Virus record (IMG/VR): IMGVR_UViG_3300032291_000769
Coordinates: 1-34,539 of that record
Strand: one strand, 5' to 3'
From: a virus
DNA: 34,539 nt
This document shows, piece after piece, positions 11,030 through 31,511 of the stretch; the stretch's first letter is position 1, and each line of letters opens with the position of its first letter. The translations under genes were made by a program, and so were the position numbers. The notes below the pieces were generated by a model. It did not search any database, had not been told where the DNA came from, and was given only the letters and a program-made list of their open reading frames with translations.

Positions 11030-12508
11030 ATGTACATACCACTCAAATTACCCCCAGGCATCTACAGAAACGGCACTGAGTATCAGGCAGCAGGCAGATG
11101 GTTTGATGCCAACTTGGTGCGCTGGTATGAGAATACTTTGCGGCCTATGGGCGGCTGGAGAAAGCGCTCTGCAAGCCAACTGACAGGCTTATGCCGAGGT
11201 CTTTTGACTTGGCGCGACAACAGTGCTGACCGATGGATCGCAGCTGGGACACATTCAAAACTGTATGTGATGAATGCAGGCGGCACACTCAAAGAAATTA
11301 CCCCCACAAGTTTTTCAGCTGGCAGTGCCAACGCCTTTGTTGGCACTGGCTATGGCGCAAGCAACTATGGCGCATTGGCCTATGGCACTGAACGATTAGA
11401 CAGCGGGACAATCATACCGGCCACCACATGGTCCTTTGATACATGGGGCGAATACTTGGTGGCATGTTCCAGCCATGATGGCAAGCTCTATGAGTGGCAG
11501 CTTGGATTTTCCACGCCGACACTTGCGGCAGCAATCACCAATGCACCAATAAACAATAAGGCAGTGCTTGTCACTTCCGAGCGCATCTTGTTTGCCCTTG
11601 GCGCCGGTAGCAACCCAAGAAAAGTCCAGTGGTCAGACCAAGAAAACAATACAGTCTGGACCCCAGCTGGCGACAACCAGGCAGGCGATTATGAGCTGGC
11701 CACGACAGGGACTCTGCTTGCAGGCAAGCGGGTTAAGGGTGTCAACCTACTGTTTACAGATACAGATGTCCATACGGCCCAGTATGTTGGCGCCCCATTT
11801 GTCTATGGCTTTGAGAAGGCCGGAAGCGGCTGCGGCCTGATATCTGCCCAGTCTGTGGCGGCCATTGATACGGCAGCCATTTGGATGAGCAAGTCTGGCT
11901 TTTGGATATATGACGGCTATGTCAAGCCACTGCCAAGCGATGTGTCGGACTATGTCTTCAACAACATGAACTTTAACCAAGCGACCAAAATCTATGCTGT
12001 CCACAACAGCAGATTTGGTGAAATCTGGTGGTACTACCCAAGCAGCCAAAGCACAGAGAATGATTCTTATGTGACCTATAACTACAGAGAGCAGCACTGG
12101 AACATCGGCACATTGTCAAGAACTGCTGGCACTGATGCCGGTGTGTTTATCAATCCCTTGATGGTTTCGGCTGACGGCTACATCTATGAGCATGAAGTTG
12201 GCTTTGCTTACGACAGCGCCAGCGTCTATGCTGAGTCTGGCCCAGTGCAGATTGGCAATGGCGACAACATCATGTCGGTGCGCCAAGTCATTCCGGATGA
12301 GCAGACCTTGGGCGAGGCGGTGGTTTCATTTAAAACCCGAAACTACCCCACAGGCGCCCAATCCACATTTGGCCCGTATACGGCAGCCAACCCAACTTCT
12401 GTCAGGTTTTCTGGGCGCCAAGTCAATGTGAAGGTGACTGGGGCGGTGCTGGCTGATTGGCGAGTCGGGGTGATGCGCCTTGAAGCTGTGGCCAGCGGTA
12501 AGCGATGA
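11030..12508 (+). CDS. Tail nozzle or head-closure protein (P22 gp10-like)
   Basis: A 492-aa protein, close in length to P22 gp10 (472 aa). It begins YIPLKLPPGIYRNGTEYQAA, then GRWFDANLVRWYENTLRPMG, a start typical of podovirus tail stabilisation/nozzle proteins. The body has repeated strand-Trp patterns (SNPRKVQWSDQENNTVWTPA, GEIWWYYPSSQS, YNYREQHWNIGTL) suggestive of a beta-propeller. It would cap the adaptor ring and retain packaged DNA. It ends in an ATGA overlap with the next gene. The family link is by length, order and pattern, not a search. Confidence 0.78.
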   Translation: MYIPLKLPPGIYRNGTEYQAAGRWFDANLVRWYENTLRPMGGWRKRSASQLTGLCRGLLTWRDNSADRWIAAGTHSKLYVMNAGGTLKEITPTSFSAGSANAFVGTGYGASNYGALAYGTERLDSGTIIPATTWSFDTWGEYLVACSSHDGKLYEWQLGFSTPTLAAAITNAPINNKAVLVTSERILFALGAGSNPRKVQWSDQENNTVWTPAGDNQAGDYELATTGTLLAGKRVKGVNLLFTDTDVHTAQYVGAPFVYGFEKAGSGCGLISAQSVAAIDTAAIWMSKSGFWIYDGYVKPLPSDVSDYVFNNMNFNQATKIYAVHNSRFGEIWWYYPSSQSTENDSYVTYNYREQHWNIGTLSRTAGTDAGVFINPLMVSADGYIYEHEVGFAYDSASVYAESGPVQIGNGDNIMSVRQVIPDEQTLGEAVVSFKTRNYPTGAQSTFGPYTAANPTSVRFSGRQVNVKVTGAVLADWRVGVMRLEAVASGKR

Positions 12509-25296: not shown

Positions 25297-27486
25297 ATGG
25301 CAACTTACATGAAACCCCAAACTAAAGGAATTTCAGTGCCAATTCTAACTGAAACACCCCAAAACAATGTATTTCAGCAGTCCCAGAACGTGGCCTGCAA
25401 AATCGGCGCTGTAGCCCCTGACGCCGTGTTCTGTACCTTTGCCCTACAGGGCAGCAAAAAGATTCCCTACAAGCGATCTGGCCAAGGTGTGGCTAGGGAT
25501 ACAGACCCGACAGACCTCTACAACGCTGAAGATGTCTGGTCTATGGAAGACGCGCCCCACGGCCAATACCTTGGCTTAGTCCAGCAGCGCCCCATCATCA
25601 GCGCATCAGGGAACTATTTGGTGTGCCTCGATGTGGACATGAAGCACGCATCTGGCCCCACCAATGTGGCCATCCAGCGCATGGCCAAGTATGTCAAGCA
25701 GAACAACATGCTGACCGAGGTCTCAGTCTCTGGCCGTGGCCGTCATGTCTTTCTATGGGTCCAGCCACCCAAAGAATCGGACCAAGTGCTGCCGAAGTAC
25801 AAGCTGGGCGGTGGCCAAGAGCTTGAAGTATTCGGCCTGCCAAACAGTGCAGGCAAGTCAGTGTTACTTTCTGGCAACGCTGTGGTCGGTGAATTCCAAG
25901 AGGCAGTCGATTTGCATGAATTGTTAATGGACTGGGGCATCATCGAGCAGCACCAGCTGCAAGAGCCAGTTACTACAAAAGTAGTTAGCCAATCATTTGA
26001 CTTCACCCAATTGGGTGCAAGGCTTGAAGACAGCGACATTGATCGTGCCGTCAAGGCTTTGCACCACATCAGCCCAGATTGTGACTACGACCAGTGGATC
26101 GAGATTGGCCAAGCGCTGCATACAGAATTCGGGGAAGCTGGCCTCGGCCCATGGATGACATGGTCCATGGCTGGCCAGAAGTTTGCCGGAACTAAAGACA
26201 TTGAGACGCATTGGAAGAGCTTTCACCAGGGCAAGGGTGTTGGCATCGGCACTCTCTTCAAGCACGCCAAGGACTGCGGCTGGGAGCCACCGACAAAGCA
26301 GACCGAGCGCAAGTCGGCGGTGGAAGACTTTGCAGCCGTGATCAGTCAGGCCCAAGGGGATGCGCCAGTGGCCCAAGACGCACCACAAGGCTGGCCAGAG
26401 CGAACTCTGTCCATCGGCCAGATCAAACCCATTCGGTACATGGTCAAAGGCTTTTGGGCGCACAGCTTCATGGTGCTGGCCGGTCAGCCTGGCATAGGCA
26501 AGACCACAGCTGTCATCAGTTTGTGCATGGTCATGGCTGGCCTCAAAGCCAAGGACTGCGAACTCACGGCCACCAAAAAACGCAAGACCATTATCGTGAC
26601 TGAAGACAGTGACCAAGTCGAAAGGACATTAACTGGATATGCGCGGCATTATGGGATTAAGTCACAAGCATTATCAGATTGGTTTGTCATCATCGATGCT
26701 AAGCGATCTAATGTGAAGGATTTACTCATGCTTGCGCATAATGTAATAAACCACACGATTGAGAATATCAGGCCATTATTGGTCCTTGACACGGCCAACG
26801 CCACCATGGATATTGATAATGAGAATGACAACTCAGAGGTCGGTGCTTATATTGCAGCCCTAAAGCAGACCATTTACATCCAGCTGGACACGCCAGTCTG
26901 CATCATCACACACACCAACAAGACCATATCAAAGGCCGACTCAGATGCCACAGCCCGTGGCGCCAGCGCATTCACCGGTGATGCCACATTGACCGGCGTA
27001 CTGTTTGAAGACGAAACCAAGACCCGTTACATGCGCCTGGTTAAAACAAGATACCAGCCCAACTTCAGAGAAATCAAATTCCAATCAGATGTCTTTGCCG
27101 ACACAGTCTTAGATGAAGACGGCGATATCCAAGAGCAAATGGTTCTACTGGTCGTCCCAGAGAAGTCATCAGAGGATGACCGAAGGCAAGCAGCCAATGA
27201 CCGACAAAGCGACAAACGGCAGCAGCAAGTCCAAGACGCGGCAGACGCTGCCTGCAACTTTGTCCAGTCCATCATCAACGCCAAAGGCGCCGTCATCATG
27301 CGCAGAGGCTCAGGCAGGCCATCAGTGCCAAAAGAGCTGGCAGGGATGCACCAGCTGGAGTGGCAAGACATCTACAGCGCAGTGCCCATGGCAGACCAAA
27401 GCTATGCCAGAAGAGCAGTAGGGGCGGCCATCTTTCAGCGCTTCTGTCTGGACCAAGCAAGCTCTGGATGGGTTCAAATAAAGTAA
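25297..27486 (+). CDS. Fused primase-polymerase / PriCT / AAA replicative helicase
   Basis: 729 aa. Residues about 30-215 are a PrimPol (AEP) domain: the acidic pair in VCLDVDMKH (Asp112, Asp114), His150 in SVSGRGRH, and LEVFGLPNSAGKSVLLSG. Residues about 246-330 resemble PriCT-2 (DIDRAVKALHHISPDCDYDQ, WIEIGQALHTEF). From about 372 comes a RecA-like AAA_25 helicase with Walker A GQPGIGKTT (396-404) and a Walker B-like LLVLDTANATMD. It would prime DNA and unwind the fork. ATG 25297 was kept, but GTG 25336 has the better ribosome site (AAAGGA 6 nt upstream) and would remove 13 residues without touching a domain. Confidence 0.87.
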   Translation: MATYMKPQTKGISVPILTETPQNNVFQQSQNVACKIGAVAPDAVFCTFALQGSKKIPYKRSGQGVARDTDPTDLYNAEDVWSMEDAPHGQYLGLVQQRPIISASGNYLVCLDVDMKHASGPTNVAIQRMAKYVKQNNMLTEVSVSGRGRHVFLWVQPPKESDQVLPKYKLGGGQELEVFGLPNSAGKSVLLSGNAVVGEFQEAVDLHELLMDWGIIEQHQLQEPVTTKVVSQSFDFTQLGARLEDSDIDRAVKALHHISPDCDYDQWIEIGQALHTEFGEAGLGPWMTWSMAGQKFAGTKDIETHWKSFHQGKGVGIGTLFKHAKDCGWEPPTKQTERKSAVEDFAAVISQAQGDAPVAQDAPQGWPERTLSIGQIKPIRYMVKGFWAHSFMVLAGQPGIGKTTAVISLCMVMAGLKAKDCELTATKKRKTIIVTEDSDQVERTLTGYARHYGIKSQALSDWFVIIDAKRSNVKDLLMLAHNVINHTIENIRPLLVLDTANATMDIDNENDNSEVGAYIAALKQTIYIQLDTPVCIITHTNKTISKADSDATARGASAFTGDATLTGVLFEDETKTRYMRLVKTRYQPNFREIKFQSDVFADTVLDEDGDIQEQMVLLVVPEKSSEDDRRQAANDRQSDKRQQQVQDAADAACNFVQSIINAKGAVIMRRGSGRPSVPKELAGMHQLEWQDIYSAVPMADQSYARRAVGAAIFQRFCLDQASSGWVQIK

Positions 27487-27662
27487 ACCGGTAAACCGGT
27501 AGTAAACCGGTAGTAAACCGGTATACCGGTTTAGATAAAGGCAGGTCTGTTGGTATAAGTGGGGGTCGTAGACCCACTTATCCACAGGCCAATCTGGTCA
27601 GTTTTGTGATGGTGAAAAGTAAAGCGGTAAAGCGGTAGATTTCCTTTGGTCATACCGGTTTA
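27483..27662. repeat. Iteron cluster GTAAASCGGT with 20-bp perfect palindrome
   Basis: GTAAACCGGT occurs at 27483, 27491, 27502 and 27513. The last copy runs into the perfect palindrome TAAACCGGTATACCGGTTTA at 27514-27533. Variants GTAAAGCGGT lie at 27619 and 27627, and an inverted element ATACCGGTTTA at 27652-27662. One more GTAAAGCGGT is at 27777 in the next gene. The spacing of 8 to 11 bp puts repeats on nearly one face of the helix. This looks like a replication initiator or repressor binding array. Confidence 0.85.
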
Positions 27663-27688
27663 CTTTTGACCCTTTTTGGAGGTTTTAC
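27487..27688. other. Intergenic region with hairpin and DnaA box (origin candidate, left part)
   Basis: Besides the iterons, this 202-bp gap holds a hairpin at 27555-27581: ATAAGT, GG bulge, GGGTC, loop GTA, GACCC, ACTTAT. Overlapping its right arm is a perfect DnaA box TTATCCACA at 27578-27586. Two further DnaA-type boxes lie just inside the next gene, at 27710-27718 (TTATCCACA) and 27721-27729 (TTATTCACA). The ribosome site of the next gene (TTTTTGGAGGTTTTAC) ends the region. No gene was found here. Confidence 0.65.
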
Positions 27689-28033
27689 ATGGTCGAGCAA
27701 ATTGAAAAGTTATCCACAGATTATTCACATTTGGATAAATGGACCGAAGATGAGCGCGTTTTCTGCCACCAGTGCAGTAAAGCGGTAAATGTTGAGCAGC
27801 GCCTGTCCATGCCAGCCGATCAGCTGGAGAGGCATCGCAAGGTCAACGCAAAGCCGCTGCACTGGATGCTGCAAGAGGCCAAGGTCAGAAATGGATGGGC
27901 AGCAGTCAAGTGGACCGAACACCAGTGCGGCCAAACCGGTCTTGGCGCATTCCCAACCGATGTCAAGCACCGATGCCACATGTTCCAAGCCAAACCCTCG
28001 GCAGTAGAATCCGAAGAATGGTGGTTGACTTAA
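27689..28033 (+). CDS. Small Cys-rich (zinc-finger-like) protein
   Basis: 114 aa with a strong GGAGG site. Cys26 and Cys29 (FCHQCSKAVNVEQRL), Cys80 (WTEHQCGQTG) and Cys96 (KHRCHMFQAKP) could bind one zinc ion. The rest is polar, with several Trp. The first codons contain two DnaA boxes and codons 30-33 an iteron, so the gene overlaps the origin-like DNA. It may take part in replication or regulation. No family is recognised. Confidence 0.72.
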   Translation: MVEQIEKLSTDYSHLDKWTEDERVFCHQCSKAVNVEQRLSMPADQLERHRKVNAKPLHWMLQEAKVRNGWAAVKWTEHQCGQTGLGAFPTDVKHRCHMFQAKPSAVESEEWWLT

Positions 28034-28386
28034 AACGCAAAAGAAAAAGCACAGAACACATTGACCAGGTCAAGGTGGTCCAGCACTTCCGAGCGTTCTA
28101 CCCAGACATCATCATTGCGGCAATACCAAATGGAGGCGATAGAACGGCCTCAGAGCGTTTGAGGCTGCACAGTGAAGGGGTTTTAGCAGGGATGCCTGAT
28201 CTTTGCGTCCTAGAGCCTAAAAACGGGTTTCATGCGCTGTTTGTGGAGATGAAGACCAAGGCCGGTGTGGTTTCAAGCAAACAAAGCGCTGTAGGTTTGC
28301 AGTTAAATGCAAAAGGGTATCGAGCAGTGGTCGCCAGATCAGCTGCCGAAGCAATCAAAACAATTGAGGATTATCTGAATGGCTGA
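28018..28386 (+). CDS. VRR-NUC domain nuclease
   Basis: 122 aa from the ATG at 28018, overlapping the previous gene by 16 nt. A longer in-frame version (27895) would begin inside that gene with an atypical sequence. The core is IDQVKVVQHFRAFYPDIIIA, then AIPNGG, GMPDLCVLE with catalytic Asp61, and FVEMKTKAG with Glu77 and Lys79, the PD-(D/E)XK signature. YRAVVARSAAEAIKTIEDYL closes the domain. VRR-NUC proteins act as structure-specific nucleases; stand-alone phage versions often lie near terminases. It may resolve branched DNA before packaging. Confidence 0.9.
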   Translation: MVVDLKRKRKSTEHIDQVKVVQHFRAFYPDIIIAAIPNGGDRTASERLRLHSEGVLAGMPDLCVLEPKNGFHALFVEMKTKAGVVSSKQSAVGLQLNAKGYRAVVARSAAEAIKTIEDYLNG

Positions 28387-28900
28387 ACCAAAACGCAAAG
28401 CACAAACACTTGCAGAAGTGGCTGACAACATTGCCGAAAGGCAGATGGGGTTGAAAGAACAAGCAGCACTTGTCCGAAAAGAAGCCACAGAAGTTAACAA
28501 GAAGATTCACGCAGCTGGTGGCGAAACTGCCATGTTAGACAGACTCTCACAGGGAGAAACCATTCTCAGCTTGGCTCGGTCGTTGGGTGTTAGCCACACG
28601 GCTTTCTATGACTGGATCGATAGAGGGGGCGAGGCGCGGGCTTCTGCCCTCACGCGTGCGCGGGCGCGAGGTGGGAGAAGTTTAGCAGAGCAGACGCTGG
28701 AAATTGCAGACGCTGCCACGCCTCAAGACGCGCAAGTTGCCAAGCTACGGGTCGATACAAGGCGCTGGCTGGCCTCCAAGCAGGCGCCAGATGAGTACGG
28801 CGACAAGCAGCAGCCACTTGTCAACATCGACCTTGGAAGCATGGCGCTTGATGCACTGCGCAAGCGCAGCGTGACAATCGAAGATATGAATACCAAATGA
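28379..28900 (+). CDS. terS: Terminase small subunit
   Basis: 173 aa, overlapping the nuclease end by 8 nt. A helix-turn-helix lies in the middle (GETILSLARSLGVSHTAFYD, then WIDRG). It is followed by the helical segment RGGRSLAEQTLEIADAATPQ, then AKLRVDTRRWLASKQAPDEY, and GDKQQP, a sequence typical of Sf6/phage small terminases. It would bind the packaging site and regulate the large subunit. It is separated from the large terminase gene by about 1.2 kb of origin-like DNA and four tiny genes, which is unusual. Confidence 0.85.
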   Translation: MAEPKRKAQTLAEVADNIAERQMGLKEQAALVRKEATEVNKKIHAAGGETAMLDRLSQGETILSLARSLGVSHTAFYDWIDRGGEARASALTRARARGGRSLAEQTLEIADAATPQDAQVAKLRVDTRRWLASKQAPDEYGDKQQPLVNIDLGSMALDALRKRSVTIEDMNTK

Positions 28901-29212
28901 TTCAGTGGCTTTATACAATGACCATTATGTTAAGTGGATAAGTCGTTATCCACAGAATTAAGTGCATCAAAGTATTACAAGCATAGTTATGCACAGGAAT
29001 CTGTGGATAAAGTTGGCCAAAATCCGTGGATAAGTCGGTGGTGGCCGACTGGCGCCTGCTGGCCGCGACCCCCCCCTTGGCCGGTTTGGCGGGGGCGACA
29101 GTGGCGGCACTAAACACCTACAAAAAAAATTTTTCTAAAAAAATTTTGAGGTAGTTAACAAATAACGCAATTTGTGCAAAAATGTCAACTTCACCAACTA
29201 CACGCACACACC
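28901..29212. other. Intergenic region: DnaA-box cluster and AT-rich tract (origin candidate)
   Basis: No gene is seen. Three perfect TTATNCACA boxes lie at 28946-28954 (plus), 28987-28995 (plus, TTATGCACA) and 29002-29010 (minus, TGTGGATAA). One-mismatch boxes lie at 28933-28941 and 29025-29033. A GC-rich stretch with C8 follows (29068-29076), then an AT-rich tract at 29121-29175 with A8T5 and A7T4 runs, a likely unwinding element. Box cluster plus adjacent AT-rich DNA is the layout of a DnaA-dependent origin. It could also contain the packaging site recognised by the neighbouring small terminase. Confidence 0.75.
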
Positions 29213-29905: not shown

Positions 29906-30105
29906 CTGATTTATTGACTGCTTTGCATCTTAGTGTGGTGATGCTGGACCTGAGGATCAGGATGATGGAGGCAATTGAGAGGGATCAGTTTGACCTGGCG
30001 ATGACATATCACTTGCTGATCCTGGTGAGAAAAGATGAGCTGGATGCGCATAAGTGGGCGATGAGTCCTAAAGCATGGGCCATTTATGAGACGATCCATC
30101 CATGA
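29902..30105 (+). CDS. Small helical protein before the large terminase
   Basis: 67 aa, coupled by ATGA to both neighbours. It is two or three helices (TDLLTALHLSVVMLDLRIRM, MEAIERDQFDLAMTYHLLIL, VRKDELDAHKWAM), mixed in charge, with no membrane pattern. Tight coupling to the terminase gene suggests related timing. No family is recognised. Confidence 0.65.
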   Translation: MTDLLTALHLSVVMLDLRIRMMEAIERDQFDLAMTYHLLILVRKDELDAHKWAMSPKAWAIYETIHP

Positions 30106-31511
30106 GTAAAGAAAATGTGTTTGCGCAGTGGGTGCAGAGGTATCAGCCTGATCCGGTTTTGTTTGTGCGTGAGGTGCTGGGGGTTGACCCCGACCCATGG
30201 CAAGTGAAGTTTCTTGGGGCGATTGCGCGGGGGGATCGGAAGATAAGTGTTAGAAGCGGCCACGGGGTGGGAAAGAGTACGGCAAGCAGCTGGGCCATGC
30301 TCTGGTACTTTATGACCAGGTCACCGGTCAAGGTGGTGGTCACGGCGCCAACAAGCAGCCAGCTGTATGACGCGATGTTTGCAGAGCTAAAGCGCTGGAT
30401 CAACGCGATGCCTTTGCCCTTGCAGGGGCTTTTAACTGTCAAGCAAGAGAGGATTGAATTTAACGCGGCTCCCACTGAGATGTTTATCTCGGCAAGGACT
30501 AGCAGGGCCGAGCAGCCTGAAGCCTTGCAGGGGATTCACAGTGAGAATGTGATGCTGGTGGCCGATGAGGCGTCTGGCGTGCCAGAGCAAGTGTTCGAGG
30601 CGGCAGCTGGATCGATGTCGGGGCACAACGCGGTGACGCTGCTTTTAGGGAATCCGGTGAGGTCTAGTGGGTTTTTCTACGACACGCATACGAGGCTCAG
30701 TGATGAGTGGACCACATTCCAAGTGGCATGTACTGACTCGCCACGGGTGTCGGATGAGTATGTCAAAGAGATGGCCATGCGCTACGGCGAGGAAAGCAAC
30801 GTCTACCGGATCAGGGTGATCGGGGAATTCCCAAAGGGTGATGACGACACAGTGATTGCCATGGATTTGCTGGAAAGTGCGGTGACGCGGGATGTGGCGC
30901 CAAGCGACTACGCGCCCATGATCTGGGGCTTGGATGTGGCGCGGTTTGGATCAGACCGGTCAGCGCTATGCAAGCGCCAAGGCAATGCGGTCACTGAGAA
31001 TATCCGGACATGGAAAAATCTGGACCTAATGCAACTGACTGGGGCGATCGTGGCCGAGTACCAGGCACTGGCGCCAAGTGCGCAGCCAAAAGAAATCTTG
31101 GTCGATAGCATCGGCCTTGGGGCTGGGGTGGTGGACCGGCTGCGGGAGCTGGGCCTGCCGGTCAGAGGCATCAATGTCTCGGAGTCACCAGCCATGGGCG
31201 GGACCTATAGGAATCTGAAGGCCGAGCTTTGGTACAAAGCGCGTGCCTGGCTCGAAGCTCGGGACTGCAAGATGCCAAAGGATGATGTGCTGATTGCCGA
31301 GCTGGCCACAGTTCGCTACAGTTTCACCAGCAACGGCAAGATCGCCATTGAGGGGAAAGACGAGATCAAGAGGCGCGGCCTGCCAAGTCCGGACAAGGCT
31401 GATGCCTTTGTGCTGACCTTTGCAAGTGACGCCATTGCAGGGATGTACGGCAGCACGGGGTCGAGCAAGTGGAGCCAGCCACTGCGCAGAAACCTTGTCA
31501 GAGTTGCATAA
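30102..31511 (+). CDS. terL: Terminase large subunit (packaging ATPase-nuclease)
   Basis: 469 aa. Walker A is RSGHGVGKST (residues 51-60) and Walker B VMLVADEAS (150-158), with Asp155-Glu156. The coupling motif LLGNPVRSSG follows at about 181-190. The nuclease domain shows WGLDVARFGSD (Asp278), EILVDSIGLGAG (Asp335) and LPSPDKADAFVLTF (Asp431/Asp434), the three acidic clusters of the RNase H-like fold. It pumps DNA into the procapsid and cuts it. The start overlaps the preceding gene (ATGA). Confidence 0.94.
   Translation: MSKENVFAQWVQRYQPDPVLFVREVLGVDPDPWQVKFLGAIARGDRKISVRSGHGVGKSTASSWAMLWYFMTRSPVKVVVTAPTSSQLYDAMFAELKRWINAMPLPLQGLLTVKQERIEFNAAPTEMFISARTSRAEQPEALQGIHSENVMLVADEASGVPEQVFEAAAGSMSGHNAVTLLLGNPVRSSGFFYDTHTRLSDEWTTFQVACTDSPRVSDEYVKEMAMRYGEESNVYRIRVIGEFPKGDDDTVIAMDLLESAVTRDVAPSDYAPMIWGLDVARFGSDRSALCKRQGNAVTENIRTWKNLDLMQLTGAIVAEYQALAPSAQPKEILVDSIGLGAGVVDRLRELGLPVRGINVSESPAMGGTYRNLKAELWYKARAWLEARDCKMPKDDVLIAELATVRYSFTSNGKIAIEGKDEIKRRGLPSPDKADAFVLTFASDAIAGMYGSTGSSKWSQPLRRNLVRVA

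Follow-up and report, generated by a model that had tools for sequence, protein, structure and literature searches.

The window analysed here, the whole of virus record IMGVR_UViG_3300032291_000769 (34,539 bases; possibly still a genome fragment), carries DnaA boxes in two places (Table 1). Region A (27482-27738) lies behind the primase-helicase gene and contains DnaA boxes, iterons, and a predicted hairpin; region B lies between the genes for the terminase small subunit (TerS) and large subunit (TerL) and contains a dif-like Xer site, a cluster of DnaA boxes, a GC-rich core, and an AT-rich tract.

Table 1. Features of the primase-helicase to terminase part of the window.
Feature	Position	Strand	Remarks
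Primase-helicase	25297-27486	+	PriCT_2, AAA_25 (Pfam)
Primase-helicase, C-terminal ~94 residues	27202-27483	+	tracks iteron class
Iteron array	27482-27533	+	four direct AGTAAACCGGTA-type copies and one inverted
Hairpin enclosing DnaA box A1	27544-27590	+	predicted; dG -13.3 kcal/mol, z -5.45; compensatory changes
DnaA box A1	27578-27586	+	exact
Second iteron set	27618-27664		direct AGTAAAGCGGTA at 27618, inverted TACCGGTTTACT at 27653
DnaA box A2	27710-27718	+	exact
DnaA box A3	27721-27729	+	exact
Iteron copy AGTAAAGCGGTA	27776-27787	+	within next small ORF
TerS	28379-28900	+	Sf6_terminase 1.2e-19; phrog_1482
dif-like Xer site, 28 bp	28908-28935	+	top match of independent dif matrix; conserved behind TerS
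XerC arm	28908-28918	+	GCTTTATACAA
Xer-site centre	28919-28924	+	TGACCA
XerD arm	28925-28935	+	TTATGTTAAGT
DnaA box b1	28933-28941	-	TTATCCACT, one mismatch; overlaps XerD arm end; TTATCCACT in 43/71 distinct sequences
DnaA box b2	28946-28954	+	exact; +38 from Xer-site start
DnaA box b3	28987-28995	+	exact; +79 from Xer-site start
DnaA box b4	29002-29010	-	exact; +94 from Xer-site start
DnaA box b5	29025-29033	-	TTATCCACG, one mismatch
GC-rich core, 60 bp	29051-29110		80% GC; tracks TerS type; candidate packaging site, separate from cassette
AT-rich tract	29119-29173		most AT-rich 55 bp, 82% AT; separate from boxes
Promoter-like hexamers	29155-29183	+	9 of 12
TerL	30102-31511	+	phrog_2 5.5e-45

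The five DnaA boxes of region B, three of them exact copies of TTATNCACA, span 101 bp, in agreement with the preliminary description, which had three perfect and two one-mismatch boxes in about 100 bp between TerS and TerL. The window contains six exact boxes, whereas 1000 first-order random sequences average 1.15; one of the 1000 reached six or more, and none held three exact boxes within 70 bp or within 160 bp. The number of boxes and the absence of random triplets within 70 bp exclude chance for the cluster. The remaining three exact boxes of the window (27578, 27710, and 27721) are located 1.3 kb upstream, among the iterons. The 55-bp AT-rich tract that had been described as following the boxes exists, but it does not adjoin them, because about 85 bp, including a 60-bp GC-rich stretch, lie between the last box and the tract.

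Relatives were collected by searches of viral contigs, which gave 156 confirmed places for TerS and 119 for the primase; 80 loci were kept of each, with many contigs in both. Downstream of TerS, 128 loci reduce to 80 distinct sequences, with three exact boxes in 49, two in 19, one in 12, and none in 0, so that at least one is retained in 80/80; elsewhere in these loci, exact boxes number 9 in 653,078 bp. Loss of box positions in relatives had been named in advance as part of a refutation, which the array withstands: the array of host-DnaA type is real, non-random, and conserved in position. No sign of a copied host oriC was seen, the two-box spacing being present in 0 of the 2 genomes searched. 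A hairpin of boxes b3 and b4 was likewise rejected: b3 reads TTATGCACA in 61/71 sequences and mismatches b4, and such a stem is therefore apparently not selected. The stretch 28940-29015 overall folds well (z -6.4).

A dif-like site, absent from the preliminary description, directly precedes the box cluster and overlaps its first box. The site was located with a matrix comprising 13 bacterial dif sites only. Ten are distinct chromosomal sites found in genomes from the order of a Methylophilales genome, an order that we take to be Burkholderiales. The other three are sites given in excerpts of PMC3025954. The site scores 15.2 bits, a value attained by 1 of 100 random sequences, and the second-best match in the window scores 7.2 bits. 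It has two 11-bp arms and a 6-bp centre that resemble known dif sites, and the arms are partly dyadic (7/11). In particular, the XerD arm matches that of E. coli at 10/11 positions and those of all dif sites tested at 9-10/11, while the XerC arm matches the dif sites tested at 3-8/11, most closely the chromosomal sites of the matrix (7/11 for one of them) and B. subtilis. The family consensus is ACTTTATACAA-CGACCA-TTATGTTAAGT, and 75/76 distinct loci of the family have the best matrix match 5-24 bp behind the TerS stop; the exception is L105, with a distance of 129 bp from the TerS stop as set. We are highly confident that the element is a dif-like site to which DnaA boxes are phased.

The centre of the phage site is mostly YGWCCA (TGACCA here), as compared with mostly TGTATA or TGTGTA in the sampled chromosomes, and the phage 20-mer is present in 0/120 and 0/398 bacterial genomes, indicating that the phage site is not a copy of a sampled host dif. 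A search for tyrosine recombinases (PF00589) gave no match in the window record, which may be incomplete, and was positive in 14/14 control genomes; host enzymes would therefore be required. A dif-like site together with no integrase gene found could mean an attachment site, at which host XerCD would integrate the phage at the chromosomal dif under control of the DnaA boxes. Phages of this sort exist: the attP of integrating mobile elements exploiting Xer (IMEX; CTXphi, VGJphi, and TLCphi) is a dif-like phage site worked by host XerCD (PMC4246890, in part). The IMEX are integrating filamentous phages or satellites, and the parts of PMC4246890 that we cite mention no DnaA boxes; here, by contrast, no integrated copy was found among the three loci that the primase search of genome contigs gave. 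With a centre unlike that of the sampled chromosomes and no copy of the 20-mer in the sampled genomes, we regard integration at dif as very improbable.

Relatives with a different TerS extend the comparison. In L264, the same arrangement stands beside a strongly diverged TerS (28% identity, 101 residues), and a second family was collected with this TerS (80 loci kept of 316). Exact boxes are present behind TerS in 60/69 distinct loci of this family (3 short loci left out). A conserved 26-mer, which is part of the dif-like site, precedes the first box; it is inverted along with the boxes in L310 and lost along with the boxes in L295 and L299. The contig with L264 (CAINTF010000009.1; 9.9 kb) is in an Acidimicrobium MAG, where it is probably misbinned; otherwise, it is a hint to the host.

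Site and boxes occur together. Among 150 distinct stretches anchored on TerS (window's family, 80; second family, 69; outgroup, MW202879), 138 have site and boxes, 10 have neither, 2 have boxes only, and 0 have the site only. The two stretches with boxes only (L288 and L293) have sites scoring 7.9 bits against a cut-off of 8 bits that was chosen after looking at the data, and the test value of 5.6e-14 overstates certainty, since the sequences are related. The geometry is fixed as well: when distances from the site are counted in the orientation of the site, 271/327 boxes have their start at +38, +79, or +94, giving spacings of 41 bp and then 15 bp. These distances hold in inverted or moved cassettes and beside another TerS; the site is inverted in 13 stretches (duplicates counted). 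The DnaA boxes are thus phased to the Xer site and may correspond to the neighbouring host-protein sites that shape the synapse at cer and psi. Most likely, judging from these sequences, the unit is a cis-acting cassette of about 125 bp comprising the 28-bp dif-like site followed, on its XerD side, by DnaA boxes at fixed distances.

The boxes could also soak up DnaA (titration) or control a rightward transcript from near 29183, and promoter-like hexamers with the boxes upstream of them accord with the latter. The number of promoter-like sites is 2 against 1.2 expected, however, the cassette is found in either orientation and also elsewhere, and the fixed distance to the Xer site would be left unexplained; we hold titration or promoter control to be improbable.

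A scan for the same box spacing that excluded sequences with G after the second box (the window's family) gave 11 loci. One of these (L270) belongs to the window's family nonetheless (TerL 92%), and another (L277) has a TerS as in L264. In five loci (L271, L273, L274, L275, and L279), the box array lies behind a TerS of the L264 kind, and no homolog of the primase, VRR, or small ORF was found; TerL is about 30% like that of the window in four of them, and L275 is too short. In L273, the cassette is retained next to a different TerL and primase. In L278 and L280, the cassette is on the strand opposite the VRR gene, and no TerS homolog was found. L278 has a second dif-like site at 11236 (14.1 bits), on the same strand as the first (6765, 11.4 bits), and both loci have CATACACTTATGTACGGAGACAC-like repeats downstream of the cassette. 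The last two loci (L272 and L276) have boxes of the same spacing, with an unrelated TerS gene about 70 bp downstream, and no Xer site (best matrix scores 0.3 and -3.0).

A scan with the core 20-mer of the site gave at least 119 stretches, of which 92 loci were examined among the matches listed. Among these listed matches, one or more exact boxes lie within 180 bp in 84/92, no TerS of either kind could be found in 46/92, and no box is present in 8/92, one of the eight being cut by a contig end. Three of the box-less loci among the matches listed (L361, L368, and L370) have the site about 40 bp from an O-like replication gene, a weak assignment (PHROG best E 2.8e-6, 2e-5, and 2e-3, respectively); a fourth (L395) has TerL nearby. 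Four loci with boxes, also among the matches listed (L405, L362, L409, and L445), have a primase-helicase nearby. L361, L368, and L370 have an O-like gene where the box-bearing groups have a primase-helicase. ParB-like/DNA-methyltransferase fusion genes lie near the cassette in L433 (1468-2682) and L445 (6041-7336). The phage C72C1 (OQ984150; TerL 48% identical) has, between TerS and TerL, a site of 15.9 bits and no DnaA box within one mismatch. Because dif-like sites without boxes and same-spacing boxes without a site both exist, neither part of the cassette strictly needs the other; evolution can separate the two, but where both are present their phase is preserved.

The preliminary description had taken the array by itself for a replication origin, with 28901-29212 opened by DnaA; the adjacent Xer site would then be explained by resolution sites travelling with origins. 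The boxes are dense and conserved, an AT-rich tract is nearby, L272 and L276 have identical box spacing without an Xer site, and the box-less sites of L361, L368, and L370 lie by O-like initiator genes, as if boxes served replication. Several observations count against this reading, however. In the TerS-anchored set, boxes are lost wherever the Xer site is lost, and box distances to the Xer site are fixed where both occur. The AT-rich tract is apart from the boxes and persists without them: MW202879, a circular record (primase 51% and TerL 76% identical to those of the window), has neither site nor boxes behind TerS and retains the GC core and the AT-rich tract. GC skew at four-fold sites (means over distinct relatives) is -0.33, -0.41, -0.45, and -0.34 in the upstream gene parts, -0.03 in VRR, -0.14 in TerS, +0.29 in TerL, and -0.31 in the next gene after TerL, with no clean origin-like switch. 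Finally, a fuller origin-like region with cognate iterons lies upstream, in region A. The preliminary description is thus supported in part, for the array and its conserved positions but not for an origin made of the array alone, and an origin at the cluster appears unlikely to us. The skew of TerL, positive in 66/66 distinct relatives amid negative neighbours, could mean that TerL is of foreign origin.

In region A, the iterons follow the primase-helicase gene in 8- and 11-bp steps and are matched to the phage's own primase-helicase. Exact DnaA boxes number three in 124/135 loci, two in 6, and none in 5 (loci not deduplicated). Iterons fall into six classes (I, 71 loci; II, 45; III, 13; IV, 2; V, 3; VI, 1). 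In a set of 76 distinct primases, classes I and II are not distinguished by residues 1-340 (I-I 0.78-0.92, I-II 0.77-0.92), while residues 361-729 track the iteron class (I-I 0.84-0.99, II-II 0.81-0.98, I-II 0.36-0.80). At the DNA level, the class-linked block covers 26380-27780, and the sequence on either side of it is unlinked (61 distinct loci). This block is a swappable module, the helicase half of the primase and the iterons being exchanged together among relatives. The repeats thus co-vary with part of the initiator, as at an iteron origin. Specifically, class III primases have a helicase part that is I-like or II-like, with the last ~90 residues and the iteron common to all; in these chimaeras, the iteron class follows residues ~636-729 alone, pointing to these residues as the probable iteron-reading domain. 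The AlphaFold model of this C-terminal end is of moderate quality (pLDDT 70); Foldseek gave no match at E<=0.001, and VIA gave Z values of at most 5.3 with some winged-helix rows among unrelated ones, so that neither offers a convincing fold. A PDB sequence search with the primase alignment gave no match.

The predicted fold of 27544-27590 pairs 9/9 bases of box A1, as in an A-site hairpin. The hairpin is retained with stem changes in classes I, II, III, and VI, L264, and MW202879, to which the claim is limited; there, 84.7% of cells are paired, and changes on both sides of the stem (3 pairs, 6 cells) were matched in 21/500 shuffles for pairs and 0/500 for cells. Classes IV and V (L055, L066, and L081), which have no region A boxes, were compared over stretches that are not fully the same place, and L081 has no stem in a stretch that only partly covers the hairpin place. 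A search of Rfam gave no match. From its sequence features, 27482-27738 is the better origin candidate.

DnaA boxes likewise occur at oriC and at the iteron origins of the plasmids P1, pSC101, and R6K (PMC5043065, as excerpted), and region A also combines iterons and boxes; its iterons, however, match a primase-helicase rather than a Rep of the P1/pSC101/R6K kind, and the boxes of region B, unlike those of such origins, are tied to an Xer site. P4 alpha unites primase, helicase, and origin recognition in one protein (a title cited in PMC9611036), a likeness to the window's protein, whose C-terminal domain the iteron class tracks. P4 alpha is an SF3 helicase (PMC9611036, in part), whereas the window's protein matches PriCT_2 and AAA_25 and no SF3/D5 family of Pfam at E<=0.01, and membership in the P4 alpha family was rejected. 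At the ABC primosome A-site, a hairpin has a DnaA box in its stem, and DnaB is loaded there (PMC6127211, in the passages cited). The predicted hairpin with box A1 in its stem resembles the A-site and lies in region A rather than in the box cluster.

Packaging by way of the boxes, as binding sites of TerS, has in its favour that boxes adjoin TerS in several groups. The N-terminal classes of TerS diverge, however (28560-28599; 0.91 within classes, 0.45 between), while the box stretch (28920-28959; 0.89 and 0.85) does not, boxes are kept beside the diverged TerS, the DnaA consensus is matched in region A too, and the GC core tracks TerS better than the boxes do. Contig ends are not fixed: 22/48 whole contigs start at scattered positions, 43-554 bp before the box pattern. 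With neither fixed ends nor co-variation with TerS class, a packaging site at the boxes was rejected, and we consider it extremely improbable. None of the 48 whole contigs starts 554-1081 bp upstream of the boxes; the starts near the boxes point to assembly breaks within TerS, perhaps owing to strain mosaicism. Over 28420-28659, the N-terminal region of TerS forms strongly distinct classes that do not follow iteron class, as though the specificity of packaging were diversifying. The GC core behind TerS comprises a run of 7-8 C, then GGCGGGG or GCGGGGGCG (about 7550-7640 in L267 and 15570-15620 in L268); MW202879 and C72C1 retain it, and L264, with its diverged TerS, has another sequence in its place. 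By its position and variation, the core is a candidate cos/pac site.

The phage site has the same 11-6-11 layout as cer (ColE1), psi (pSC101), and pdif (Acinetobacter plasmids) and, like these, a XerD arm that is nearly that of dif, a centre unlike most chromosomal dif, and no recombinase of its own. The accessory sites of cer and psi lie on the XerC side and serve ArgR or ArcA together with PepA, whereas those of the phage site are DnaA boxes on the XerD side. The phage site also differs in its setting, next to TerS in tailed phages. Host DNA-binding proteins with sites next to cer and psi are described in the cited part of PMC5357621, and an oligonucleotide of this site type with the centre TCGCCA is given in PMC7399989 (Table 1). 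Phage P1 supplies its own recombinase, Cre, whereas the cassette would use host XerCD. The loxP site of P1 lies near pac. Cre/loxP is a recombination site system that keeps the phage genome monomeric (PMC2409434, in part).

We give an even chance to the reading, drawn from these analogies, that the cassette is a site for monomerisation or circularisation by host XerCD, with DnaA as the likely accessory factor. Host XerC and XerD would recombine two copies of the site to yield circular monomers, the two copies being supplied by genome multimers or by repeated ends of an incoming linear genome. DnaA bound to the phased boxes would shape or license the Xer reaction, in parallel with ArgR or ArcA and PepA at cer and psi. 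Behind TerS in MW202879, site and boxes are swapped for a serine resolvase gene (PF00239, E 3.5e-27), which fits a function in monomerisation. Replication would most likely start 1.3 kb upstream of the cassette, in the iteron region, whose iterons would be read by the C-terminal domain of the phage's own primase-helicase; the DnaA boxes of region A may aid initiation, and one lies in a hairpin of a type at which DnaA can load DnaB. Kinship with phage-plasmids was rejected: no close plasmid relatives were found by primase or TerL, and the 150-bp cassette gave short chance-level matches only against phage and plasmid records. A scan of ORFs of the window revealed no partition gene, so that plasmid life is unsupported.

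More tentatively, and somewhat against our expectation, DnaA may be a structural and regulatory partner of Xer recombination, with the boxes at +38, +79, and +94 serving to build a synapse or to sense the state of DnaA. Genome resolution or circularisation would then be coupled to replication and to packaging at the adjoining terminase, and a portable DnaA-licensed Xer cassette would be common to several unrelated tailed-phage groups.

Xer sites and DnaA boxes are each known singly. Their fixed composite beside terminase genes is apparently unreported, a weak negative: the literature searched, in which few subscription journals are covered and many papers appear in part, yielded no description of tailed phages with DnaA boxes joined to an Xer site. 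The composite of a dif look-alike and evenly spaced DnaA boxes beside a packaging gene recurs in several phage groups. The natural chimaeras of the primase-helicase, for their part, point to an iteron-reading domain of ~90 residues ahead of experiment. The cassette of this uncultured phage is short, portable, and directly testable, and it may let two host systems, XerCD and DnaA, serve the management of a phage genome. If so, tailed phages without a recombinase would use host XerCD and DnaA to make circular monomers from linear or multimeric genomes, and the roles of DnaA in origin opening, transcription, and titration would be extended to site-specific recombination.
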